Shown in pieces: positions 20,428 to 34,263 of a stretch of 64,000 nt of DNA (its first letter is position 1; each line of letters begins with the position of its first letter). The notes beneath the pieces were generated by a model, which had not been told where the DNA came from, did no database searches, and saw only the letters and a list, made by a program, of their open reading frames with translations. The stretch comes from Vulcanisaeta sp. JCM 14467. GTDB lineage: Archaea; Thermoproteota; Thermoprotei; Thermoproteales; Thermocladiaceae. Location of the stretch: positions 124,001 through 188,000 of the forward strand of contig NZ_BBDM01000002.1 of the NCBI RefSeq assembly GCF_001316245.1, in the 5' to 3' direction. The position numbers and the translations under genes were made by a program.

Positions 20428-20847
20428 TTAAACGAGACTTCTAGGATCAATTCTAGTCAGACCAACTACCTTATCATACACGTTATCTGTGGATATGATC
20501 TTCCTATCCTTATCATATAGTAGGCATGTTGCTGCGTTATACGCATCGAAGATTGATGAAATGCCGTATTGATCCATCAGTGCCAGGGCTAATAAGTCAA
20601 CGTCAACGGTTGTTGGAATCCACCTGAGGTTTGGTATATGTGTTAATGCACCAACCCTATTAAGTATCTCACGCCTACTGAGCCCAGTACGACTAAGCAC
20701 ATAGTAAATTTCATGAATAACCTCCCTACTCACCAAGACCTTACCAAAATCCCCATTGGCAATACGTAGTAATAACTTATCAGCCACGTCCTTAAGCCAA
20801 TCCCTATCCTTTAAATGGGCCACTAATACGTCAGTCTCAATCAGCAT
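20428..20847 (-). CDS. PIN-domain VapC toxin
   Basis: Start at ATG 20847 (MLIETDVLVAHLKDRDWL), which overlaps the antitoxin stop by 11 bases. The four acidic PIN positions are visible: ETD near residue 5, REVIHEIYYVL, FDAYNAATCLL and ISTDNVYDK. About 139 residues. VapC toxins are Mg-dependent ribonucleases that often cut tRNA or rRNA; the target here is unknown. Intact, unlike the PIN gene at 14.5 kb. Confidence 0.85.
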   Translation of the reverse strand: MLIETDVLVAHLKDRDWLKDVADKLLLRIANGDFGKVLVSREVIHEIYYVLSRTGLSRREILNRVGALTHIPNLRWIPTTVDVDLLALALMDQYGISSIFDAYNAATCLLYDKDRKIISTDNVYDKVVGLTRIDPRSLV

Positions 20848-21089
20848 GGCCCAACCTCCTAGCTCTTTCAAGGGCATCCCTAGCGGCTTCTTCCTCGGCT
20901 TCTTTTTTTCAATTCTTCAATACTCTTCTCACTCCTTATGATGCCAGATGTTGCGGCTAATGGGTCCTTGGGTATGGGTATGCCTATGAAGTATTCACCA
21001 ACATCAATTATAATCACCGAACCATACTTAGCAAGTCTCCCAGGTAACCTAATCCTACCTCTATTATCGATCTTAACCACGCTCCCCAT
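20837..21089 (-). CDS. AbrB/VapB-type antitoxin (one frameshift)
   Basis: ATG 21089: MGSVVKIDNRGRIRLPGRLA is the swapped-hairpin AbrB DNA-binding domain. The frame breaks in the T7 run 20903-20909; one base change restores KKEAEEEAARDALERARRLG, a helical toxin-binding tail ending at 20837 inside the PIN gene. A TATA (gatttaaataaatg) lies about 26 bases upstream. It forms a toxin-antitoxin operon with the PIN gene. Confidence 0.75.
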
Positions 21090-21281: not shown

Positions 21282-22667
21282 GTGTTCATCATGAGTAATA
21301 AGAACATCATAACTAGTTACATTAGGAACATCATAATTCTTGCGGCTATAGCCCTAATATTCTATGCAGTGTCATATGCAGTATCACCTCCTTACCCTAT
21401 ATCGCTAGTATTTATATTTATTGTAAACGGTATATTTATACCAATAATAGTCTTTCTAATACTCAACCTAGCAGGCAATCTACTAATGTCTAGAAATATT
21501 AATGCCCTTAAGGCACTGGGCATGGTTATTACACGATTAATATCACCAGCCATATCAATTTACCTAATCTTCACTGCATTAATACCCATCCTATTACCAC
21601 TTAATACGTTCATCAACATAACCACAGCCATAATGACGGCGTACCTAGTAATACTCGGATTACTAACCAGGTCGTTTGGAACCGTACTTGGCCACACAAC
21701 TAGAGAATCGATAAGGGGCCTTGGTACTACTATAGCTCTGTTCGGCATGGCAATGCTTACCCTACAGATATATGCATCGCTGTATACACTGTATACCCAA
21801 TCAATAATACCAATGAGCATACTCATACTCACGTCCGCTATATATAACGCATTCCTATACGCTGCCGTGACATCCATAGTAATTACAGCAATAGTTTCCC
21901 TGGGCTTCCTAACCCCGTTAAGGCCCGTATCCATGGACATGGCGCACATATCCGGTGATACTATGTATATAGTGGCGATAATAGGCATGGCAATCATACT
22001 CGGTACACTAACACCCTATGACAACTATATAACCGCATTATCAATATCAGCACTAGTAATTATTACTGCCTTAATAAGCTATAGACTCATAACGGCATAT
22101 TTAAGGCTTGGCGAGAGTAGGGTAAGGGACATATACAGCGAATATGCCAGTAAAGTCATGGGAAAAATAGTAAATAATGACTATGAATTAATTAATGCAA
22201 TGAATGATTTTATGGCAAATGGAAATAAGGAACCATTACTAAGATACTTAACAAACATGCCAACGCACTGCAGCGACGTGAGAATAAAGGCCCTGGGCAG
22301 GCTGCGAAGGTATAAACCACCATATTATGGAGGGCTTTGGCCATGGGAAACAAGCGGCATTAAAACCAAGGCTGTCAAGGATGCTGAAATAAGGACAAAA
22401 ATAGCCACAGAAATAATAACCCTAATATCAACATGCCAAGAGGAAAAACAAGCAATCCAAGTCAGCGCCCAACCCACAACCCCACCCACAGCACCAACCG
22501 CCCAATACATAGCTGAGGACGGCACCAGGATTTACGCCCAGCCAACCGAGGAACTACCAGTCAAACCACTCGAGGAGGAAACCAAGACCAAACAAGAAGG
22601 TACGGTTATAAAGCAAGAAGAAACAACGACCACAAAATCAAAAGATGAACAAAAAGGAAATAAATAA
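21282..22667 (+). CDS. multi-span membrane protein with cytoplasmic tail shared with the 30.8 kb protein
   Basis: 461 intact residues (GTG 21282 or ATG 21291). About eight hydrophobic helices up to residue ~270 (IIILAAIALIFYAVSYAV and on), then a helical soluble part (RVRDIYSEYASKVMGKIVNN) and a Pro/Thr linker. The last ~55 residues begin AEDGTRIYAQPTEELPVKPL and turn into a Lys/Glu/Thr-rich end. The same tail ends the Ig-like protein at 30765. It heads the signalling cluster and is a plausible kinase target; this is inference. Confidence 0.65.
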   Translation: MFIMSNKNIITSYIRNIIILAAIALIFYAVSYAVSPPYPISLVFIFIVNGIFIPIIVFLILNLAGNLLMSRNINALKALGMVITRLISPAISIYLIFTALIPILLPLNTFINITTAIMTAYLVILGLLTRSFGTVLGHTTRESIRGLGTTIALFGMAMLTLQIYASLYTLYTQSIIPMSILILTSAIYNAFLYAAVTSIVITAIVSLGFLTPLRPVSMDMAHISGDTMYIVAIIGMAIILGTLTPYDNYITALSISALVIITALISYRLITAYLRLGESRVRDIYSEYASKVMGKIVNNDYELINAMNDFMANGNKEPLLRYLTNMPTHCSDVRIKALGRLRRYKPPYYGGLWPWETSGIKTKAVKDAEIRTKIATEIITLISTCQEEKQAIQVSAQPTTPPTAPTAQYIAEDGTRIYAQPTEELPVKPLEEETKTKQEGTVIKQEETTTTKSKDEQKGNK

Positions 22668-22702
22668 AAATATACAAAAAAACAAAGAGTAAGGGAAGAA
22701 TA

Positions 22703-23773
22703 ATGACCAAGCAATCATTGCTAGTAGGGGCATTAATACTGACGTTAATATTACTTTCAATTTCAATAGCCCTAGCTCAGATGCAGGAGCCCTCAACTAG
22801 CCCACTTATTTCGAATGGTATTGCTTGTGTCCAGTTTAATAACCCGCCGCCATACCCTGGCGGGACCTATCCAGTACATTGGGATGTGTTTAAGGTTGCG
22901 CTTAACGGCGGGAACCCATGCAACTACCCAAACCTATTCATAGGAGATTTAAGGGCAGGGGAAACTGCGCATCTTGTTTACTATAATGGTTATAGTGATG
23001 ATGGTGATAGTGACTCAAGAATAGGGACATATACTCAGCTATACATTGTGAATAATCATGAAATCCTTGGGGTTATTAATGCTCCTAGTGGCTTAACGGA
23101 AAGGACTTATTAGGAGTTGGTGGGTAATCTTCCGGTGGTTTACGTAAACTTCACAGTGAGTAATACTCCTCAACCTACCATGTTTTTGTACGTGATTGAT
23201 TTCATTAATGATATTTACGTGGATCCAAATCCTGGGGAGACATCGTGGGTTGTGGCCCTTGGTGTTGGTAATTACTCCTTCCCAGCCCAACATCCCCGTG
23301 AAATGTATGACCTAGCCACTAATTGGGGCTTTAATGCATCCTTAACCCCCAGATCAATTCACACCTGGCTATTGGGCTAAGATATACATACCAGTAAGTG
23401 CTGGCCAATTCGTTTGGATGGAGATAAACCAGCCTGGGGTTGGTACTTACTACCTAGCCCTATACCCACTAACACCTATTGAAGGGTACTACATAGCATC
23501 AGCCAGTGGTTGGGCGTTCAATAAAATTGTAGGCTTGATATTCGCTAATAATACTGTCTCAGCCAGCGGAGCACTCCAGTTGTTTACGGCACCAGCCTAA
23601 ACAACCTACAACAAAACATCAATGAGGCACTAACTACATTGGGTATTAAGACGGCTGCTAGATCACCAATGCTTAATGTATTTAATGGGATAATACTGTT
23701 TGTTACCATAATCGTTATTGCTATCATTGTAGTATTAGTTATTTTACCGGCGACTATTCACAGAAGGCACTAA
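22703..23773 (+). CDS. secreted, C-terminally anchored surface protein (several frameshifts and one in-frame stop)
   Basis: ATG 22703 starts a signal peptide (SLLVGALILTLILLSISIAL, cleavage after ALA). Pieces follow: a beta-rich domain to TERTY, an in-frame TAG at 23111-23113, VGNLPVVYVNFTVSNTPQPT, a break in C5 near 23348 to PGYWAKIYIPVSAGQFVWME, and a break near 23595 to LNNLQQNINEALTTLGIKTA. The C-terminal helix (FNGIILFVTIIVIAIIVVLV) and ILPATIHRRH end at 23773. About 350 residues, probably cell-surface. A homologous C-terminal remnant lies at 27251-27457. Confidence 0.55.
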
Positions 23774-23928
23774 TAGATTTATGACCAATAAAACTGGAGG
23801 TTGTGATTTACCGTGGCATTAAACGTAATGGCTTATGTGGTAGTTACATAATTATACTATCTAACTTCCATGGTAATAAACTAATCATAATACTTAAAAT
23901 TAAAGATTAAGCAGTAGATTGGAAGAAC

Positions 23929-24942
23929 ATGCTCAATAAATTAACGACCAAGGAAGGATATAAGGTTTTAATAAGCACGTGCACAAACCATGCAGAGTCA
24001 CTTGCCTTTACGTATAAGGCATACCTAGGTGGGTCACCAACTTTATCGTATGGGGTCCTCATACCTTATGAGGATATTAATACAGCTCTTGCAATATTAA
24101 GAAGGGTGTTGCTAAATATGCCCATAGGCGATGATTTATTAATTAATTCGCACTATTACATTTGGCATAATAATATCGAGATGCTGTCATCAAAACGATT
24201 AAGGAAATACCTACACATGGTAAATGCTGAAGATACATCAGGTAAGGTCATTATTGCATCACCATACTCAATGAAAGGAGCCAATAAGGAGAGGAATGAG
24301 GACTCCACGGGGATACTATCAATTAAATACTGCGGAGACACGGTAAACCTACTCCACATATTCGCAATAGCAGATGGAGTGAGCAGCCTACACGGCGGTG
24401 ATTATGCAAGTTCATTTGCGGTAAGGAGCTTCATCTCGGGTGCATTGTCATTATTAAATTCCGTAAACACAGACCTTAAGGATAACCTAAGGGAATTACT
24501 AATGAGGATACACACAGAGCTTCAGGAGTATGCCGAGAAAAACAACGTAAACACTGGGACAACATTCACGGGAGGCGTAATAATGCAAAGAGGTAATGCC
24601 GCAATAGCCACCATAGTTCACATAGGTGACTCAAGAGCATACAAGATAGTTAACAACACGGTAAATAGAATAACGACTGACCACTCCCTCGGGGGTCACG
24701 TAATAACCCAGGCATTAGGCTACGTGATTAAGAACATAGATACGTATGAAACAATGATTGGACGAAACACATACCTAATCCTAACCACGGATGGCATAAC
24801 TGACGTAGTACCTGACGAGACAATAGGGCGAATAGCCTATGAGTATAGGTATCCAAAGTACGTATCATGGGCGCTTGTGAATGCCGCAGAAAATCTTGGT
24901 ACTGGTGATGATGCAACAGTACTAACTATATGGAGAACCTAG
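23929..24942 (+). CDS. PP2C-family Ser/Thr protein phosphatase
   Basis: 337 intact residues. All PPM motifs are present: RNED near residue 122, ADGVSS near 148 with GGDYAS after it, GTTFTGG near 211, HIGDSRAY near 231, DHSLGGHVITQALG, TTDGITD near 287 and GDDATVL near 326. The acidic residues bind two metal ions that activate water for phosphate removal. The first ~110 residues are an extra domain of unknown role. It is convergent with the kinase-surface protein operon and is probably the kinase's opposing enzyme. Confidence 0.9.
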   Translation: MLNKLTTKEGYKVLISTCTNHAESLAFTYKAYLGGSPTLSYGVLIPYEDINTALAILRRVLLNMPIGDDLLINSHYYIWHNNIEMLSSKRLRKYLHMVNAEDTSGKVIIASPYSMKGANKERNEDSTGILSIKYCGDTVNLLHIFAIADGVSSLHGGDYASSFAVRSFISGALSLLNSVNTDLKDNLRELLMRIHTELQEYAEKNNVNTGTTFTGGVIMQRGNAAIATIVHIGDSRAYKIVNNTVNRITTDHSLGGHVITQALGYVIKNIDTYETMIGRNTYLILTTDGITDVVPDETIGRIAYEYRYPKYVSWALVNAAENLGTGDDATVLTIWRT

Positions 24943-25975
24943 GCTGTCGCAACATCGTCATACGCATTACGCGACCTAAGCCACAAAGCCATAATCGTCG
25001 CCGCCACAACAATTAAAGCGACAACTATTATAATGGCAATAACACCACTAAGTATGAATGGAACACGCCTAAAGTGAATAGGTATAATCACTGGCCCATT
25101 CACCGTTATGGTATTACTCGTTATATTCGCTACGTAGCCGTGAATCGGCTCAATGTAATACTCATACGTGTTCTCAGGTAGAAAGAGTGTTATTGTATTA
25201 GATGTTGCGTTAATGATAGTTCCATTTAATTTAATCGACCAAGATGTACCAAGTGGTAGTCCACTTTCGACAAAAGACACGGTATAGACAGCCATTATCC
25301 TCTCCCAACCGTGTTGGTCAGTAACTATTGATTGGCCCAATGGTTGTAGTATTGTGACGTTAAGTACTACGTATATGTAATACGTACCCTGCTGGGTAGG
25401 CATGTAGTTAAAGGCTATGGGATTAATACCTGGACTTAAATTCACAGATCGAGAAAGTATACTTGCATCTGACACGCTTTCCGTGTTAGATATGTAGACC
25501 GTGACCTTACCCGTTAGATTCTTCTCCTGAGTATTGTTATTGTTAATGTAGACTATTATACTGAAACTATCATTAGAAGTGTTGAAGGTTGACGTTACAT
25601 TCATTACCCACGGCATGTCCCTCGTAAAGTTATACACCAGGTGCTCAGGCACGTCAATAGTTAGGTTACCCCAGTATTCTGTGTAATTAAAAATGGTACT
25701 ATTAGGATGATAATACACGTAAACTATATACTTACCAGGCGAGATATCATTAAATACTAATTGGGAGTTATTCATGTATACCGTAGCTATTCTTTGCATG
25801 TTAGTGGCATTCACGAGTATGCCGTAAACAACGCCAGGCACCTTAGTTACAGCTCGCCAGTAACATTAAACACATTAATCTTAACGGTATAATCCATAGA
25901 ATCCGCCATAACCACGTGAACACCCACCAACAATAACAATATGGAGATTGCGAGCAATATAATGAGCCTAGCCAT
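24939..25975 (-). CDS. surface protein with signal peptide, Ig-like domains and C-terminal anchor (one frameshift)
   Basis: ATG 25975 begins a signal peptide (RLIILLAISILLLLVGVHVV). A one-base loss near 25858 joins FNVTGE to AVTKVPGVVYGILV. Beta-rich domains follow, then SFVESGLPLGTSWSIKLNG, a repeat type common in archaeal surface and thermopsin-like proteins and also seen in the 29448 gene. The anchor is FILSGVIAIIIVVALIVVAA near the end with a short charged tail. It starts four bases after the kinase stop, so the two form an operon. Confidence 0.65.
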
Positions 25976-25979
25976 ATCA

Positions 25980-27205
25980 TCACCCAGCACCAGCATTTAT
26001 CTTAAACAATACCTGCAGATACGGGCCCTTCATCGCGTCATAAGCTAACGCAATTACATCGCCATCCCTAAGCTCGAACTCAGGGGACTCCTGCTTATAA
26101 CCCCTATAAACCTCGATCCAACGCCCATCCCTATAAACGGCAGTCTTATTTAAACTGCGAGATCCTTAAGGAACCACTTATCACCCCTCCTAAATATCAT
26201 ACAATGCCTCTTACTAATGAACTTATTCTCATCATAAATCTCAACCATAGCCTCACCACCCCTATAATAAAACTCAGTCGCGTCAGAGGTATCATTCCTA
26301 CCGAGTATAATAACGTCACTATTCACATCATACTTAACACCCTTAATCACCAGGGAAACAGGGGTCTCCGCAATCTTAACCTCACCACCAAGCAAATCAC
26401 GAAGCATATCACTAGCCGTCAAGTACCTATTACTCATGACCGGGTCCATGGCCCTACGAATAACCTTAACAACCCTCTCATCAACATCCTCATTATACTT
26501 CCTCGGATCGGGGGGCACAACAACATTGTCTGGGTAACCTGGCATGTCATACTCAGGGTCACGCCCTGTCACCAGGAAGTAAAGCACGGCACCCAAGGAC
26601 CAAATATCGCTCTGGGGTGACGAGAGGAATCGCCTCTGCTCCGGAGCCGTATAGCCGCCAGGTGATATCACGGCCTCATTAGACATGGGCTGGTCGTAAT
26701 AATACCTACTCGTACCGAAGTCAATCAACTTAACAATACTGCTCTTCCTCTCAACTAGTATGTTCTTGGGCTTAATGTCCCTATGAATCACGTTATTCCT
26801 ATGCATGAAGGAAACAGCATCACAGAGCTGCTTCATAATATCAATAACAGCATCCATGGAGGCCTATTATTACGCACGTAGGAGTCAAGCTAGGCCCATC
26901 AATATACTCAAGAACCAAAATCACAGGATTAAGATTAACGCCAGACACTGTACGAAGAACCTCAAAGGCCTCCACCAAACTCACAATATTCCTATGCCTA
27001 AGAACCTGAGAACCTTAGCCTCATGCCTGATCTTCTCAATATTAAGTCGAGTGCTCTGCAGGTCATCCTCCCTAATGATTGGCTCCTTAACAACAAAATT
27101 CTCATTAGTATCGAGCTTCTTAGCAAGCCAGACATAACTCATACCACCCCCACCAAGCTCCCTAACCACAACATAATCCCTAAACCTAACACCAGGCTTA
27201 AGCAC
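25980..27205 (-). CDS. Ser/Thr protein kinase with C-terminal FHA domain (about four frameshifts)
   Basis: GTG 27205, 26 bases from ttttaaatag. Pieces in order: the glycine loop GGGGMSYVWLAKK, FVVKEP (ATP lysine), HRNIVSLVEAFE, VILVLEYIDGPSL, HRDIKPKNILVE (catalytic loop), LIDFGTSRYY, GGYTAPEQRRF and SDIWSLGAVLYFLVTG: a full Hanks-type kinase of about 270 residues. The FHA domain follows: VIILGRNDTSD, SKRHCMIFRRGDKWFLKDL, then after a break near 26150 SLNKTAVYRDGRWIEV and ELRDGDVIALAY. FHA domains bind phosphothreonine, so it can recognise its own or partners' phosphorylated sites. Confidence 0.85.
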
Positions 27206-27250
27206 AATAAAATACGCGAAAAACTATTTAAAAATTGTACGCCAATAGTG

Positions 27251-27457
27251 TCAGGTCTTTCTACGCATTGTAGCTGGTAAAATAATAAGTACCACAATAA
27301 TCACAACTACAATTACGATAATGAACAACATCACTGAGGAAAACAATGACGTACTGACCGTTATGAGGTAATTAGCCCATATACTGCTTTTGATGCCTTC
27401 ACCCGAAGCTACTAATACCAAGTCTGGATTTGTTATGCTAGTTGGCTTAGTGCTGCG
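27251..27457 (-). pseudogene. C-terminal remnant of a surface protein
   Basis: An open frame without a start codon encodes about 68 residues ending FIIVIVVVIIVVLIILPATM RRKT. The membrane helix followed by ILPAT and basic residues matches the end of the 22703-23773 protein (VIAIIVVLVILPATIHRRH). It is probably a leftover of a duplicated surface gene upstream of the kinase. Confidence 0.45.
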
Positions 27458-27734
27458 TTATTCGCGTAGTATGGCGATAATCAATTTTATATACCCTACT
27501 TTATATATAAATTTATAAAAATGAGGACTGACTGATAACAATTTGATTCACTTCGGCTCTAAAGCACATAAAAGGAACCTGAGTATTCTTAATTTTGTTT
27601 ATGTCATTGTTCATCACCTCATGTTATAATTAATTTACAGACCTTCTGCGAAATGTTACTGATAAAATAATCCATGCAACACCAATAGCGATTGTAATTA
27701 TAATAATACGCAGCATTATTTCTAAGCTTGTTGT
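27458..27734 (-). other. mostly non-coding stretch with one short hydrophobic ORF
   Basis: AT-rich. ATG 27716 opens a 28-residue peptide (MLRIIIITIAIGVAWIILSV plus TFRRRSVN) that ends at 27630. It is in the same frame as the preceding winged-helix protein, separated by that gene's TAA, so it may be a tiny membrane peptide or a lost C-terminal anchor. Confidence 0.3.
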
Positions 27735-28878
27735 TTATTTTTTTGTTTTTATTAGTATGTGGTATCCGAGCGGCATTAATTTTAGGTTGTCGTCTAGTAG
27801 AGTCATTGCCCTGAGCCTATTGATCTCCCAATTGATGGTTTCCTCACTCACGCCGGTTTGTTCAGCGATCTCCTTCACATTAATACCCGATCTCGCACTC
27901 TCCAGTATTCGCAGCTCAAGTTGATTAAGTTGAAGGTCTACGAGACCCTTATCCATTAGGCCAATAAACCTTCTCTGAACCTCAAGAACATCGACACCAG
28001 CCTCCCTGGCGATCTGCTCAAGGGAAGCACCAGCTAAACCTCTCAAGAATAAGGCGATCCAAACCAGAAAGAGAAGACACACTAATACTAGGCGATGAGA
28101 CGTACGAAGAGAAATTAACATTAGATTTTGTCACGCCATATCTAGATTGCACCGCAAAATTAGCGAGGATACCCTGTTTAATTATTGTATTAATTATTCC
28201 TCCTGCACCTACATAAGCCATAAGTAAGGCAACACTTACCACAAACGCGGCACTATACACCACCATGTTTATAAGGGACGAAAAACTACTATATAAATGT
28301 AATCGTAGATCTACTGTTATCATAATAAGTGGAATAAATAGACCAGCACCATATACGAATAAGATCACACTAGAGACCTTAAGTATTCTATTCCTAAATA
28401 TACGCCCCAGATCATTAAACATAAGCCCTAAAGACAAAAGAAGAATAATAACTCCTATAATACCCATAAATATTGCTCCTATTAGGAACTGTGTCTCAAG
28501 TAATTTAAACCCTGTATCACTAAGGAACAAAGCCATTATTGATATTACATAAAACGCAGCAATTGGTAATAATAATGAATCCTCTATATAATTTATATCC
28601 TTATAATATTTTCCTTTAGGAAGCATACGAGATAATCGACTATGAAGCGCCATTATTGATATATATCCTAAAACGGCTCCCGTACCAATTAAAAGATCAA
28701 GTGCGGGATTTGTTATAAGATAATAGGACTCGTATTGTATAATTGGTTCATTAGCAGCGAAGAAGGGTATCAAAATTATTAAATTAGATATAATAATCTC
28801 TAACATATTGTCACGAATCGCATTAAATACGTTTAATGAAGATAAGGTACGTCTATCCATATTATTAAAAATACTCAT
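27735..28878 (-). CDS. membrane protein with C-terminal winged-helix domain (one frameshift)
   Basis: ATG 28878 (MSIFNNMDRRTLSSLNVFNA) is chosen because an aggaggagg Shine-Dalgarno lies five bases before it. About six or seven hydrophobic helices follow, then a Ser-rich linker. A break near 28025 joins SGLDRLIL to RGLAGASLEQIAREAGVDVL and a second HTH-like stretch (IRSARSG-like helix, IAEQTGVSEETINWEINRLR). So a DNA-binding-type domain is tethered to the membrane. About 380 residues. It may be a one-component membrane sensor of this cluster. Confidence 0.6.
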
Positions 28879-28882
28879 GTGC

Positions 28883-28890
28883 CTCCTCCT
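28883..28890 (-). promoter_or_regulatory. Shine-Dalgarno site deciding a start
   Basis: On the minus strand aggaggagg precedes ATG 28878 by about five bases. Most genes in this window lack such a site, so this mRNA probably has a leader. Confidence 0.5.
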
Positions 28891-28983
28891 ATACGTCCCT
28901 CTCCCCAAAACCGCCCCATAACTAATGAATAAAACAATAGTTAAAACTAGTGGTAAAAAAATATTCTAGTAAAGCATTATTAC

Positions 28984-29289
28984 TTATACCTGTAGGCGAA
29001 ATATACTGATTACCCAATCTTGCCAAAAAAACTTGCCAAAAAAATATGGAAGCAGAAGCAGAGAAAGTCCAATGAAAGCAACTAGTATTAGTCCTGCCCA
29101 TCCTCCGCCCATCCTACCCGCAACATAACCACTTATTATTAATATTATTGGTACAATCATTAATGAAAATATAATAGAATAAGGAACCATTACAGGAAGA
29201 ATAATAAATAACGCAAATAACATGGATAGTATAAGTGTAACTAACCCAAAGAGGAAGCCAAGAACTATATCTTTAGCTTTTCCCATCAC
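28984..29289 (-). CDS. small membrane protein
   Basis: 101 intact residues with three or four helices (IVLGFLFGLVTLILSMLFAL, YSIIFSLMIVPIILIISGYV, WAGLILVAFIGLSLLLLPYF) and a GGGWAG turn. The pattern resembles DUF5518-type archaeal membrane proteins, but the match is weak. A TATA (gctttaaaagc) lies about 27 bases before ATG 29289. Confidence 0.5.
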   Translation of the reverse strand: MMGKAKDIVLGFLFGLVTLILSMLFALFIILPVMVPYSIIFSLMIVPIILIISGYVAGRMGGGWAGLILVAFIGLSLLLLPYFFGKFFWQDWVISIFRLQV

Positions 29290-29447
29290 TTCATCATCAA
29301 ATTAGAGCTTTTAAAGCGTTATGGTCATAATATTTTTATAAAAATTAACAAAATACATTAAAGCTAAACTTCTCAATATTAATGATAAATGGCTAAGGTA
29401 TAAACCTAGCTGAAGTTGAATTTGACGAGCGTCGTGCTACGTTAAAT

Positions 29448-30659
29448 CTAGCCCCTCCTCCTCATGCCCTTAATAATTATTACAGCGGCTATTATGATTG
29501 CTAAAGCGATTATTTCCAGCGATATAATTGTGGTATATATGCCCCCCATAGATGAAGTCGAAGTAGATTGAGTATTAACATGCGTAACAGTAACTGGCGG
29601 GGTTATTTGTATCTGCTCAAAACTAATGGTTTGTGTAACATTGGAGTTGGTTACTGTGACTGACCCTGAGGATGGCGATGCCGTATAGCCAGGTACGGAG
29701 CCGACGGTGTAGGAAAATGTACCAGCAGGTACTTCAAATGTTACCTCATTTGTCGTTGAAGTCTTCGTGACACCATTCAGTGTTACAGACCAGGCAGTTC
29801 CAGATGGTAAACCTTGCTCAATGAATGTAACGAGGTATGGCTTGATTATAATAGTGCTACTGATAGAATTGGGTTGTCCCTCAATATTTGTAAGGGTGAT
29901 GGGTGAACTAATAAGGTTAATTTTTCCTACCAGAGGTATATCTAAGTATAAGGCACTTATTTCTATTGTATAACTAATGTCGCTTAAAGTTATTGTGATC
30001 GTTCCATTGGGTACGTTTTCTGCAGTTATTGTAATTGGAATGGTGGTTGGTTGATTAAATGTTATTTGTTCATTAATGGGATTCGCAACATCTCCCGTCA
30101 CAGTCAACACTCCACTTACATAAGTCGTATAATCCATATAAAGTGGGATAGGAACTCCCGTTGCTACTGCAGTAAGAGAAGCAAGCGAGACGCTGTACGT
30201 TCCTAAGGCATTTATATTATTTGAAAAAGTACCTCCATTAATCCCAACACCCATAATTGTTATACTCGGAATGGAAACCGATATCTGCATTTGTGATCCT
30301 GAGAGCGTTATACCGAGGTTCTCTGTTTGATTAGGGAATATCACCCCGCTTGGGATCTCAATTACTGGGCTATAGGTAATGCTAAGAGTACTACTAGCAC
30401 TTATTACGCCAGGAATGTTTATTGTGAATGGAGCGTTTATATTGAAGGTGATCTCTTCCTGAGGATCAGTGAGGTACTGGGGTTGTTGTGCATAGCTTTG
30501 TAATGGTGCGTATGTATAATTTTGTTGATCTTGTAAATAGGTGGAGCCAGTGGTATTGGCACTGCTTTGAGCCAGTGTCATTATTGATAATATTAATGTG
30601 ACTATTATGATTGCGGCTATGAGACTTACCCTTAGTGTCTTAGCTGCACGGTAAGACAT
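29448..30659 (-). CDS. surface protein with signal peptide, beta-sandwich domains and C-terminal anchor
   Basis: 403 intact residues. The signal peptide (RVSLIAAIIIVTLILSIMTL, cleaved near LAQ) resembles that of the FHA protein at 32965. A Tyr/Gln-rich linker and beta-rich domains follow, including FIEQGLPSGTAWSVTLNG, which is also present in the 24939 protein. Near the end are a Thr/Ser stretch, the helix IISLEIIALAIIIAAVIIIK and a short basic tail. TATA aacttaaaaacg lies about 30 bases upstream. Probably an S-layer-associated or adhesive protein. Confidence 0.65.
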   Translation of the reverse strand: MSYRAAKTLRVSLIAAIIIVTLILSIMTLAQSSANTTGSTYLQDQQNYTYAPLQSYAQQPQYLTDPQEEITFNINAPFTINIPGVISASSTLSITYSPVIEIPSGVIFPNQTENLGITLSGSQMQISVSIPSITIMGVGINGGTFSNNINALGTYSVSLASLTAVATGVPIPLYMDYTTYVSGVLTVTGDVANPINEQITFNQPTTIPITITAENVPNGTITITLSDISYTIEISALYLDIPLVGKINLISSPITLTNIEGQPNSISSTIIIKPYLVTFIEQGLPSGTAWSVTLNGVTKTSTTNEVTFEVPAGTFSYTVGSVPGYTASPSSGSVTVTNSNVTQTISFEQIQITPPVTVTHVNTQSTSTSSMGGIYTTIISLEIIALAIIIAAVIIIKGMRRRG

Positions 30660-30764
30660 AGTTAACTTATAGATACTTATACGTTTTTAAGTTTTTTCCA
30701 AAATGGAGGATAAGAAAAAGCTTAATGCCAATGCAGTTTAATCATTTATTCATTTAACGAATCA

Positions 30765-32957
30765 TCATGCTTTGTCTTCCTGTCCCTTGTTTTCTTCTTG
30801 TTCTTTGTTTTGTTCTTCCTCCTTTGGTTTTACGACTGTTGATTCGTTGTTTTGTTTTGTTGTTTCTTCTCCCTGCCTTACTACTGTTTCTGCCTGCCTT
30901 ACCCTTGTCCCCTCATCGAGTGGCTTTACGGGTAGTTCCTCGCTTGGTTGTGCGTAGACCCTGGTCCCGTCCTCCGCAACTCCCCTAACCACGGTGCCCG
31001 ACTCACCACCTCCACCCCTGATTATTGTCGTTGTCCTCCTAATTATGATTGTCGTGAAGTACCTAACCCTATCCCTATAGACAACCCCAAGGCCGAGGAG
31101 TGCAACGCCGGCTCCCAACCCAATCACGTTAACCATGTTGTAAACCCAGACAAGCTCTATCGTGGCTGGTCCGCTCACTGTTAGGCTCACTAGGCCTGTG
31201 GATACAGTACTCGAGCCAGTGCTTGTTCGTATCACTGCATGGCTGTAGGTCAGTGGTATAATTGGGTTTGAACCATTGGGCCTGTAATCAAGGGCGTTTA
31301 TGCTCAGGTTACCACCCTCATCAACCCAGTAGGTGCCTACGGTGTTATTCCTTAAGCCGCCTAGTCCGGTGATTACGTCCTCAACAATGACCTGGTACTG
31401 CATAACCCACTGGGCTGTGCAGGTGATTGGTGAGTTCACGGTTATTGTCGTGGTTGATGGTGGGTAACCGCAGGACCAGCCCTGGAAGGAGAGCCTGGAG
31501 CCATTGTTGTAGTTAATGAACTGCGGTATTGAGGGTAGGCTCACGGTGGAGCCCTCATTAAACCAACACTCACGGACTTGCCAGTCACGGGTCAGTAATC
31601 GATACGTAGTACTGCTCAACATAGTAGGCAGTCAACGTAGTCGGACCACTAACAGTGACCGTAACCGTGTTGGAGGAACCAAGCCCATTAGACCAATAAC
31701 CAAACACAAAACGCACACCACTACCCGCACTCACAGTACTAGGAACAGAGACAACATACGTGCCTGGGGCTACCCATAGGCTATTGGTTTCCTGCCCGTT
31801 AATGCTGGCTACGGCATTAACTGGTGTGCCACTCATGGTGACTAGGTTTATGACAAGCTCGGTTAGTACCGTGACATTAATCTCGAAAGTGTCCGTATAG
31901 ACATTGTTTGTGTACGGCCATGAGTATGTTAGGTCTAGGGTTATGACGCCGTTCCCAGCGGTGTTGGGTGTTAGATAGAGCGTTACCGTTAACTCACCAC
32001 CACTACTTACCTGTGTTGTTGATAGAGAAACATCAATATTTGGCGCTATATTTGATGTTGCGGTCGCGGTGATATCACTTGCTGTGTAGCCCGTATTTCG
32101 TAGAACTATGGTTATTGTGTTTTGCTCGTTCTCATCGAGAGTTGTAGTGCTGACGCTAACGATCGTGAATGGGCCGGGTCTACTCGGTAATACGGTAACA
32201 CTTACTGATGATGAGCCATCTAAGTATCCATCACCGTATACGTAGACCGTTACCGTATCACTAACGGGACCACTAGGCGTCTCCACGTATATCGGCACAT
32301 TGACTGTGGCCTCGCTCTGGCTGGTACCGTGACTTGCATTGACTGTGCACTGATTAGTCCGGCGCTATCGCTGACCTCCACGGTGTATGTATAGGATATG
32401 TAGCCCGTATTTTCTATACTAACTATAAGTGTGTAGGTGTTATTGCCGATTAGCGTGGTTTCCTCCTGGTTATTGTTGTTGACTATGTATGGCGAGCTCA
32501 CGATCTTGGCTGGTGGATGATCTTCCTCAATGTAGCTTGCACTACCGGTTACGCATTCGGAGGTGATGGCGTTATTAACAATTAGGCATGCGGTAACGTA
32601 TGCCGTATATGTTTGGCCATTGTAAATTGGCGGCACAATCTCCAGCGCCCCATAATATATATAACCGCCCTCAACCTCACCCTGATAAAGTGTTTCAGTA
32701 CCAGGCGGCCCACTTAATGTTACGGTTAAATAAACCGGTTGTCCCTGAAATACCTGGGCGAGATTTATGACTATATAGAATTCCTCACCCTTATAGAACA
32801 CTGATTGCAGCTGAAAGTTTGTGTTTGTGAAATAGACTAATTGATTTGAGATTGGAGGTACTGGAGCAGGATTAAGCGCGTATGCCGATACTGATGTAAT
32901 AAATACTACAAGTAATATAACACCAATTGTTATTTTTAGGAAATGTTTAAGTTGCAT
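30765..32957 (-). CDS. large Ig-like surface protein with shared cytoplasmic tail (about three frameshifts)
   Basis: Best start is ATG 32957, a signal peptide (LKHFLKITIGVILLVVFITS, cleaved near VSA). CARDB-like repeats follow, then a break near 32310 to EATVNVPIYVETPSG, more beta domains with FGYWSNGLGSSNTVTVTVSG (InlB-repeat-like), breaks near 31590 and 31560, and another GWSCGYPPSTTTITV repeat. After the helix VIGLGAGVALLGLGVVY comes a cytoplasmic tail beginning AEDGTRVYAQPSEELPVKPL and ending Glu/Gln/Lys-rich. About 730 residues. The FHA gene upstream overlaps its 5' region. Confidence 0.65.
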
Positions 32958-32964
32958 TTGCTTT

Positions 32965-34002
32965 TCACCCACCAGTGTATACTTGGGTTGACTCTTCTGT
33001 TATGAATCTTAGGTCTAGTACTCCTGCCGGGCTTATTGTGTCTCCGTTCTTGAGTTCCTGCGGTCCCTTGCCCTTTATTTCCTTGCCGTTGAGTAGTGTC
33101 CCGTTTGTGCTGTTTAGATCCTCCACATACCACTTATTGCCCCTTAGGAATATCCTGAAGTGGCCGCCGCGTTCCTCCCTACTTATCATCTGGAGGGCCT
33201 CGGGTGGGACGCCGTATCTCTCAAAGGTTTCCCTGCCGAAGACCTTCACGACATCGGTAACGGGTATTTCATTACCATTCGGTAGCCTTAATCGGTAAAG
33301 CACAACGCCAACCTTCGTTGCTGCTTCTCTTTTCTCTGCGACAACGGTTGGCCCTGACACTGATGGGCGTGGTGTTGGTGGTGCTGTGACTTGCAGTGGC
33401 GGTGGTTGTGCTCGAGCTGTCTGACTTTGGCCGCTTGGTTTTCTTAGGTACATTACCGCGCCTATTGCTGCTATAATTATTACTACGGCTAGTATTATTG
33501 ATATTAATAATGGTGATATTGGGGATGGTGATGGAGGTGGTGATGATGTACCAATAGTCACCTCAAAGGATGCCGATCCGCTTCGTCCTGTGGTTGGGTT
33601 TGATATTGTGACTATTATTGTCCAAGTACCGGTGGGTGTTGTGTCGCTTATTGGGTTTATTAGTGGTAGATATGAACTTTGATAATCATTTAATGTTAAT
33701 GAACCTGAGTACAGCGTTTCTACAGCACCACTTGGTGTCTCTCCAGTCACTACAACATTAACGTTGCAGTTAGCTGACGTTTGTGATTGCAGCCTAAGGG
33801 TTACGTAGAGTGATTCGCCAACATTAAATGTAGACTTGGGAGTTCCGCTTGGGCCGGATGGGTAGATGACTATGGGTCCGCAACCAACATCAACTGATGA
33901 TTGAGCTACCTGAGCCATTAGGATTGTTGGCAATATTAGCGTAATTATGATGAATGTGACCGCGAGACTCACCTTAAATACCTTGATTTTATGGTAAGCC
34001 AT
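32965..34002 (-). CDS. membrane-anchored FHA-domain protein
   Basis: The likely start is ATG 34002 (MAYHKIKVFKVSL), about 30 bases from gcttaaaaaaa; an upstream ATG at 34032 lies on the TATA. Signal peptide, an external beta-sandwich (residues ~35-150), a Pro/Ser linker, the helix ISIILAVVIIIAAIGAVMYL, a Pro-rich cytoplasmic linker, then an FHA domain: VFGRETFER, ISREERGGHFRIFLRGNKWY, VEDLNSTNGTLLNGKEI and LKNGDTIS. This would link a surface domain to phosphothreonine recognition inside the cell. Intact, about 345 residues. Confidence 0.85.
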   Translation of the reverse strand: MAYHKIKVFKVSLAVTFIIITLILPTILMAQVAQSSVDVGCGPIVIYPSGPSGTPKSTFNVGESLYVTLRLQSQTSANCNVNVVVTGETPSGAVETLYSGSLTLNDYQSSYLPLINPISDTTPTGTWTIIVTISNPTTGRSGSASFEVTIGTSSPPPSPSPISPLLISIILAVVIIIAAIGAVMYLRKPSGQSQTARAQPPPLQVTAPPTPRPSVSGPTVVAEKREAATKVGVVLYRLRLPNGNEIPVTDVVKVFGRETFERYGVPPEALQMISREERGGHFRIFLRGNKWYVEDLNSTNGTLLNGKEIKGKGPQELKNGDTISPAGVLDLRFITEESTQVYTGG

Positions 34003-34263
34003 AACCAGCCCGTTTAAGTATTTATCAAACATTTTTTTAAGCTTTTTTTCCTAAAAATGAAGGAAGAACATCATAAAATAAATGAATAAGCAATTATTTA
34101 CTTGTAGAATTAAAGATATATTAGAATTTATAATCTCTACAATAAACCGTTATTATGTTATCTTAAGAATATTTAAATATGCTATTTATCAAAATTAAAC
34201 AATTAAATTAAACATAAACATCATGTAGTTTATTTCATCTGCTCACAGCCTTATTAATAAATC

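Follow-up and report, generated by a model that had tools for sequence, protein, structure and literature searches.

A kinase, phosphatase and FHA gene module among surface-protein genes of Vulcanisaeta sp. JCM 14467, and the membrane proteins that may be its clients

What do a Hanks-type Ser/Thr kinase, a PP2C phosphatase and two FHA proteins do among the surface-protein genes of an archaeon? The question is raised by part of a 64,000-nucleotide stretch of Vulcanisaeta sp. JCM 14467 (contig NZ_BBDM01000002.1, positions 124,001 to 188,000; the window), which represents 64 kb of contig 2 in an assembly of 2.44 Mb, 25 contigs and 82% completeness. An initial annotation had proposed that phosphorylated cytoplasmic tails control envelope proteins at this locus. 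Our comparison with related genomes, which are referred to by codes (G001, G002 and so on, with G000 for the window genome) and whose family names are presumed, identified an all-or-none gene module and a module-specific tail that suggests which proteins it may act on.

A co-occurring kinase, phosphatase and membrane FHA module

Across 81 genomes of the class, the kinase clade was found in 11, the membrane FHA protein in 11 (counting both full-length genes and genes cut by a contig end) and the PP2C phosphatase in 12. The pairwise overlaps were 10, 10 and 11, with hypergeometric p-values of 4e-10, 6e-11 and 1e-12, which are overstated because related genomes are not independent draws. Wherever the kinase and the membrane FHA gene occurred together (10 of 10 genomes), they lay on the same contig, approximately 0.02 to 16 kb apart. 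All three genes were missing from the closed same-genus genomes G004, G007 and G010 and from the near-closed G011, and a search of 398 genomes of the phylum at E<=1e-75 gave no member of the kinase clade outside the class. Presence is scattered over several families, across which the adjacency is conserved. The kinase-FHA, PP2C and membrane-FHA genes thus form a real, all-or-none module, and the conserved neighbourhood that the initial annotation had asked for is borne out by strong co-occurrence and synteny.

The assembly is indel-rich, and reading the window's open reading frames showed many genes to be split over two to four frames. The kinase gene (Table 1) occupies four frames that run from 27205 to 25980, and a homologue search places it at G000:C2:150156-151205. 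Compared with the intact homologue in G005 (L057 1442-2671), it is a single base short at each of four places and otherwise free of internal indels. Substitutions between the two genes fall 66/31/211 on codon positions 1/2/3, the pattern of purifying selection, so that the four deletions are probably late and artefactual and the breaks have the look of errors in the assembly. The same third-position bias ruled out a pseudogene. Catalytic K, E, HRDxKPxN, DFG and APE are kept in seven homologues including the frame-corrected window kinase, the exception being G055 with DLG for DFG. These motifs and the alignment to PknB, the nearest solved kinase, identify the protein as a Hanks-type kinase, and it has no transmembrane segment. 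In the phosphatase, the acidic metal-binding residues E124, D125, D149, D288 and D327 are invariant across five homologues, as expected of a PP2C enzyme.

Both FHA domains in the window retain the phosphothreonine-binding residues (GR, the Ser of SxxH and the Asn of SxNG), which answers the concern that they might lack the critical Arg or Ser after frame correction. The kinase FHA domain has GR, SKRH and SLN, with GR/SxxH/N conserved in 7 homologues, while the membrane FHA domain has GR, SREE..H and STNG. An AlphaFold2 model of the membrane FHA protein (predicted local distance difference test score, pLDDT, 77) shows strands at residues 45-161, a helix at 174-195, disorder at approximately 197-241 and the FHA domain at 246-345. 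By Foldseek, this FHA domain matches FHA domains solved with phosphopeptides, with DgcB, GarA and OdhI among its neighbours, and the modelled ectodomain is probably near RbmA.

Related gene arrangements were seen in several genomes. G021, a genome of the same family, holds a compact soluble operon of zinc-FHA, vWA, kinase-FHA and PP2C genes beside an ankyrin-repeat protein (L160 3927-7638). Outside Thermoproteota, a metagenome-assembled genome titled Euryarchaeota archaeon (VBMB01000138.1, L075 7973-11173) encodes vWA, zinc-ribbon FHA and kinase-FHA proteins in a row, the kinase-FHA being 31% identical. The envelope-linked module may derive from a soluble module of this type, with the G021 operon as a possible ancestral form. 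In G055 the module adjoins a secreted vWA protein of 1028 aa that has a dockerin-like repeat at its C-terminus (L034 8253-11339), and in G070 a ParA/MinD-like ATPase lies two genes from the membrane FHA gene (L055 2210-2908). Small stand-alone FHA proteins (approximately 100-120 aa) occur in several presumed Thermoproteaceae, often beside a gene for a protein of 359-381 aa (L042 10019-10321; L044-L047, L049); most of the genomes with them are without the module.

A shared tail and its threonine motif

The clearest sign in the sequences that the polytopic and S-layer-like proteins may be clients of the module is a tail that they share. The two proteins are otherwise unrelated, and their tails in the window are homologous (2.1e-14, 64% over 48 aa). 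At E<0.01 the 50-aa tail was found only in G000, G002 and G005, and no module-less genome of the genus had it. In G001, G003, G010, G014, G023 and on another G000 contig, polytopic homologues stop short of the tail. The same tail is carried by three unrelated proteins in G002 (weakest match E 0.004), where the homologue of the surface protein at 22703-23773 has the shared motif EGTRIYSSETLVK. G005 has it on two polytopic proteins, one of which (tm1) has lost the cytosolic domain yet kept the tail. The pattern T-V-[VI]-[KR] is kept in all tail copies of these three genomes except G002 surfA, which has T-L-V-K; the window's S-layer-like tail holds three copies of T-V-V-[KR]. Tail peptides of interest include SGTVVRGVAEDGTRVYAQ and AETVVRQGEETT.

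AlphaFold2 predicts eight long helices for the polytopic protein and disorder for tail residues 397-461. We regard this protein, which the initial annotation overlooked, as a prime candidate client. Homologues of the S-layer-like protein adjoin the module in G002, G013, G016, G024, G025 (two), G034 and G039, making it the most constant neighbour after the three core genes. As a suggestion about substrates, the earlier proposal therefore gains from the module-specific tail and its T-V-V motif, which are consistent with tails being phosphorylated; what it missed was the candidate client at 21282-22667.

Threonine contexts were assessed in 16 tails and linkers, homologous tails being represented by one sequence each. 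When every two-position pattern around Thr was scanned, the strongest was T with two aliphatic residues after it, which occurred 16 times against 2.5 expected (family-wise p 0.001). With each protein counted once, T[VL][VI] was present in 7 of the 16 (1.3 expected) and T.[VIT][YW] in 6 (0.33 expected), while ET alone was not enriched in this set (10/16 against 7.95). The segment ETTVVRG found here resembles E-T-T-x-V, which we take to be the phospho-site of GarA.

In the window, the linker of the membrane FHA protein has the sequence SGPTVVAEKRE. Phosphorylation of Agrobacterium TssL at Thr14 depends on PpkA, and Fha binds DLPpTVVEI (PMC3953482). The T-V-V of this ligand matches the enriched motif, including SGPTVVAEK in the window linker, a resemblance that is suggestive at the level of sequence and was noticed after the motif had been found.

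The proposed switch, its pilus link and its alternatives

Two relatives connect the module to a surface structure. In G034 and G025 (presumed Thermoproteaceae) the module lies within one locus together with a 739-aa T2SSE ATPase fused to a C-terminal FHA domain, TadC (T2SSF), a secreted protein of approximately 1,050-1,210 aa, a vWA-FHA protein and seven small N-terminally anchored proteins that look, as read by sequence only, like class III signal-peptide pilins. The ATPase, TadC and these putative pilins mark it as an archaeal type IV pilus locus. Triple EET motifs (EETVVWEETRLLEETLVA / EETLVAEETKVVEETLVA) precede the FHA domain in both ATPases, inside a linker that has otherwise diverged, and the fusion was found in no other of the 398 phylum genomes. 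The main text of a census of archaeal type IV pili (PMC4858521) describes for Thermoproteales pilins, an ATPase, TadC and a large S-layer-like protein with a C-terminal anchor, and marks Thermoproteus uzoniensis as exceptional in having at least six further, unique components; neither a kinase nor PP2C nor an FHA fusion is mentioned there for these loci. At the window locus no such membership was found, as the listed ATPase homologues of G000 are all on contig 1 and none on contig 2. The earlier statement that no homologous secretion machinery was seen therefore holds for type VI secretion, whose sheath protein VipB is absent, but misses the pilus locus of G034 and G025.

On balance, we think it probable that the module is an envelope-coupled threonine-phosphorylation switch, in which the kinase and PP2C would toggle threonines of tails and linkers on which FHA domains dock. 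The cytosolic kinase-FHA would phosphorylate Thr in T-V/L-V/I motifs, often after E, in the tails of the S-layer-like and polytopic proteins, and the membrane FHA protein would be modified likewise in its juxtamembrane linker. The phosphorylated motifs would then be bound by the FHA domains of kinase and membrane protein, which would cluster surface and membrane proteins in a complex, and PP2C would reverse the modification. In the presumed Thermoproteaceae the switch may act on the type IV pilus through the ATPase-fused FHA, with its three-EET linker, and the vWA-FHA adaptor. Docking might result in assembly, retention or silencing of the surface structure. More tentatively, as a claim slightly short of evenly balanced, we suggest that Thermoproteota own an independently assembled, accessory envelope switch whose clients are marked by a transferable T-V-V/T-x-V-Y tail, whose code also controls the FHA-ATPase pilus in Thermoproteaceae, and which is convergent with the phospho-control of type VI secretion.

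Several observations weigh against such a switch. The Thr of G-T-R-V-Y is replaced by Ala in one G005 tail copy, the tails of G016, G034 and G039 lack T-V-V (some use T-x-V-Y or T-x-T-W), and T[VL][VI] is weak when only tails are counted (3/10, p 0.03). The motif was found post hoc, the expressions T[VL][VI] and T.[VIT][YW] were refined after viewing the data, and the shuffles ignore sequence relatedness among tails that are few in number. The cytoplasmic side of the tails follows from the positive-inside rule. Module presence is patchy, and no pilus gene was found in the module within the window's own family.

One alternative is that the module is a general cytoplasmic regulator that alters the transcription of surface genes, with FHA domains reading phosphorylated regulators and not tails. 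Sulfolobus offers a precedent, as ArnA/ArnB with kinases and PP2A control archaellum expression (PMC6509490); the soluble gene sets of G021 and the Euryarchaeota-titled genome, and the polytopic winged-helix protein that adjoins the module in the window, would fit as well. Such a regulator does not explain why one FHA protein is membrane-anchored with an ectodomain, why membrane proteins bear the shared tail only in genomes with the module or why a pilus ATPase carries FHA in two relatives, and no transcription factor is conserved in the cluster. We consider it unlikely. Somewhat less likely again is that the tail is a sorting or assembly tag read by something other than FHA, while the kinase, PP2C and FHA proteins act on other substrates. 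The most conserved tail block (EELPVKPLEE) does hold no Thr, and the alanine substitution noted above points the same way, but the tail occurs only with, and next to, the kinase module, and T-V-[VI]-[KR] is retained in nearly all of its copies.

A defence or biological-conflict system, similar to TerY-P triads, KKP or PD-T4-6 kinases, with surface proteins hitchhiking in a variable island, appears improbable. It would account for the patchy distribution, the kinase domain matches many PADLOC kinase models, and the combination of a vWA protein with PP2C and a kinase is known from TerY-P triads, which have links to restriction systems (PMC11090510). These PADLOC matches are limited to the generic kinase domain, with no full-length match, no partner genes and no defence match for the other module proteins, so that the known anti-phage kinase systems were rejected as candidates; the cluster showed no conserved nuclease or restriction gene, and both the tails and the ATPase-FHA fusion speak for a role at the envelope. 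That unrelated signalling genes came together by chance in an island that is rich in surface proteins and lowered in G+C (approximately 0.41) has next to no likelihood given co-occurrence p-values of 1e-10 to 1e-12 and adjacency conserved across several families.

The neighbourhood and known systems

After reading across frames, the gene order in the window is polytopic, surface, PP2C, Ig-like, kinase-FHA, winged-helix, small membrane, surface, S-layer-like and membrane FHA (Table 1; the Pfam scan covered ten window proteins). Frame breaks and the splitting of one gene aside, the initial description of this gene content is accurate. Pfam recovered the Hanks kinase fused to FHA (in four frames, not one open reading frame), the full PP2C gene, which converges with the kinase-Ig pair and overlaps it by 4 nt (24939-24942), and the second FHA domain behind a signal peptide and a transmembrane segment. 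The kinase stop codon TGA is followed after 4 nt by the ATG of the anchored Ig-like gene, as had been described. The signal-peptide surface proteins are present, with three reading frames at 30765-32972 proving to be one gene, whose start supplies the overlap reported for the membrane FHA gene. The membrane-tethered winged-helix protein is also present, as a polytopic protein with a C-terminal helix-turn-helix, and lies outside the conserved set.

Table 1. Features of the locus, with positions in the window
Position	Strand	Feature	Evidence
21282..22667	+	Polytopic (8-helix) membrane protein; cytosolic helical domain; disordered tail homologous to surface-protein tail	Tail match; AlphaFold2
22509..22649	+	Shared tail copy 1, polytopic protein (AEDGTRIYAQPTEELPVKPLEE..EGTVIKQEE); candidate kinase substrate and FHA dock	Match at G000:C2:146509-146649
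22703..23773	+	Signal-peptide surface protein; C-terminal transmembrane segment; frame-split; no tail in window copy	
23929..24942	+	PP2C-type protein phosphatase	Pfam PP2C_2 6e-10; NCBIfam Stp1/IreP 3e-30, below curated cut-off
24939..25996	-	Ig-like anchored surface protein, 4 nt past kinase gene; one frameshift near 25850	Order kept in relatives
25980..27205	-	Hanks-type Ser/Thr kinase with C-terminal FHA, ~400 aa across four single-base deletions	Pfam Pkinase 5.4e-38, FHA 1.2e-8
27735..28908	-	Polytopic membrane protein with C-terminal winged helix; frame-split; neighbour only	Pfam HTH_24 2.6e-5
29448..30659	-	Signal-peptide surface protein; C-terminal transmembrane segment; no tail; neighbour, not core	
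30765..32972	-	S-layer-like Ig/repeat surface protein, ~740 aa (three frame-split open reading frames); C-terminal transmembrane segment; 101-aa Thr-rich tail, predicted cytoplasmic	Homologues beside module
30813..30983	-	Shared tail copy 2, S-layer-like protein (GVAEDGTRVYAQPSEELPVKPLDE..AETVVRQ..ESTVVKP)	Match at G000:C2:154813-154983
32965..34032	-	Membrane FHA protein: signal peptide, beta-sandwich ectodomain, one transmembrane segment, disordered Pro/Thr linker with P-T-V-V, cytoplasmic FHA	Pfam FHA 1.8e-12

The Ig-like gene also follows the kinase gene in G005 (L057 2655-3578) and G002 (L058 12988-14061), and its product has a short tail ending ..DDVATA or ..DDVTTA. The winged-helix protein, a 101-aa small membrane protein and the surface protein at 29448-30659 were rejected as core parts, having no homologue in the other module loci examined. 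Directly upstream of the kinase, a C-terminal transmembrane fragment at 27251-27457 (-) (..IILPATMRRKT) resembles the C-terminus of the protein at 22703-23773 and looks like the remnant of a surface-protein gene. Adjoining the locus, a short open reading frame at 20428-20877 (-) has a PIN-domain (VapC-like) look, judged by eye only.

In its proposed working the module resembles the threonine phosphorylation pathway of the type VI secretion system and also the Arn network, but it belongs to neither: no type VI sheath was found, and the locus has no soluble ArnA/ArnB pair. As in the PpkA-PppA-Fha pathway (PMC3953482), genes for a Hanks kinase, a PP2C phosphatase and FHA proteins are kept together, and by analogy a cytoplasmic part of a membrane protein may undergo kinase-dependent Thr phosphorylation that is read by FHA. 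In contrast to that pathway, the module kinase lacks a transmembrane segment and is itself fused to FHA, one FHA protein is membrane-anchored with an ectodomain, and the candidate clients are S-layer-like and polytopic proteins and, in presumed Thermoproteaceae, a type IV pilus ATPase. The sheath protein VipB/TssC (PF05943) was absent from ten module genomes, with a control search that found E. coli, and membership in type VI secretion was ruled out.

The Sulfolobales Arn network (ArnA FHA, ArnB vWA, ArnC/ArnD kinases, PP2A) is likewise an archaeal FHA/vWA/Hanks signalling system that controls a type IV pilus-like surface structure, and in it the FHA protein binds its partner at the C-terminus, which bears the phospho-sites (PMC6509490). 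It differs in that ArnA and ArnB are soluble, the phosphatase is PP2A and not PP2C, and, according to the main text of the pilus census, ArnA/ArnB are never encoded in type IV pilus or archaellum loci (PMC4858521). No soluble pair of zinc-finger FHA and vWA proteins was found in the window, where the FHA proteins are kinase-fused or membrane-anchored. On contig 8 (G000:C8:70560-73745, L002), a zinc-finger FHA protein resembling ArnA adjoins a polytopic membrane Hanks kinase and forms a separate phospho-signalling pair.

The TerY-P triad of vWA, PP2C and kinase is approached by the soluble relatives in G021 and L075, which combine vWA and kinase (with PP2C too in G021), and vWA is present in G034, G025 and G021. 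The module differs from the triad in that its kinase is fused to FHA and not to a zinc ribbon or OB fold, and no restriction or tellurite genes were noted; no vWA match was obtained among the ten window proteins scanned. PknB-like kinases and their targets GarA and OdhI are structurally close, PknB being the nearest solved kinase and GarA/OdhI among the nearest FHA folds, but they act on metabolic enzymes and are not membrane-coupled.

We found no description of the Thermoproteus tenax or T. uzoniensis kinase-FHA clusters in the openly readable literature, although an earlier mention is possible, for instance in supplementary figures. Few substrates of archaeal Ser/Thr kinases are known; the module names a kinase, a phosphatase, readers and likely phospho-sites together, and may bear on how archaea regulate S-layer-associated proteins and their many pili. 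If the switch is real, the fused ATPase would be, as far as we found in the literature, the first pilus ATPase with a built-in phosphothreonine reader, and the module would be a convergent archaeal counterpart of the phospho-control of type VI secretion.

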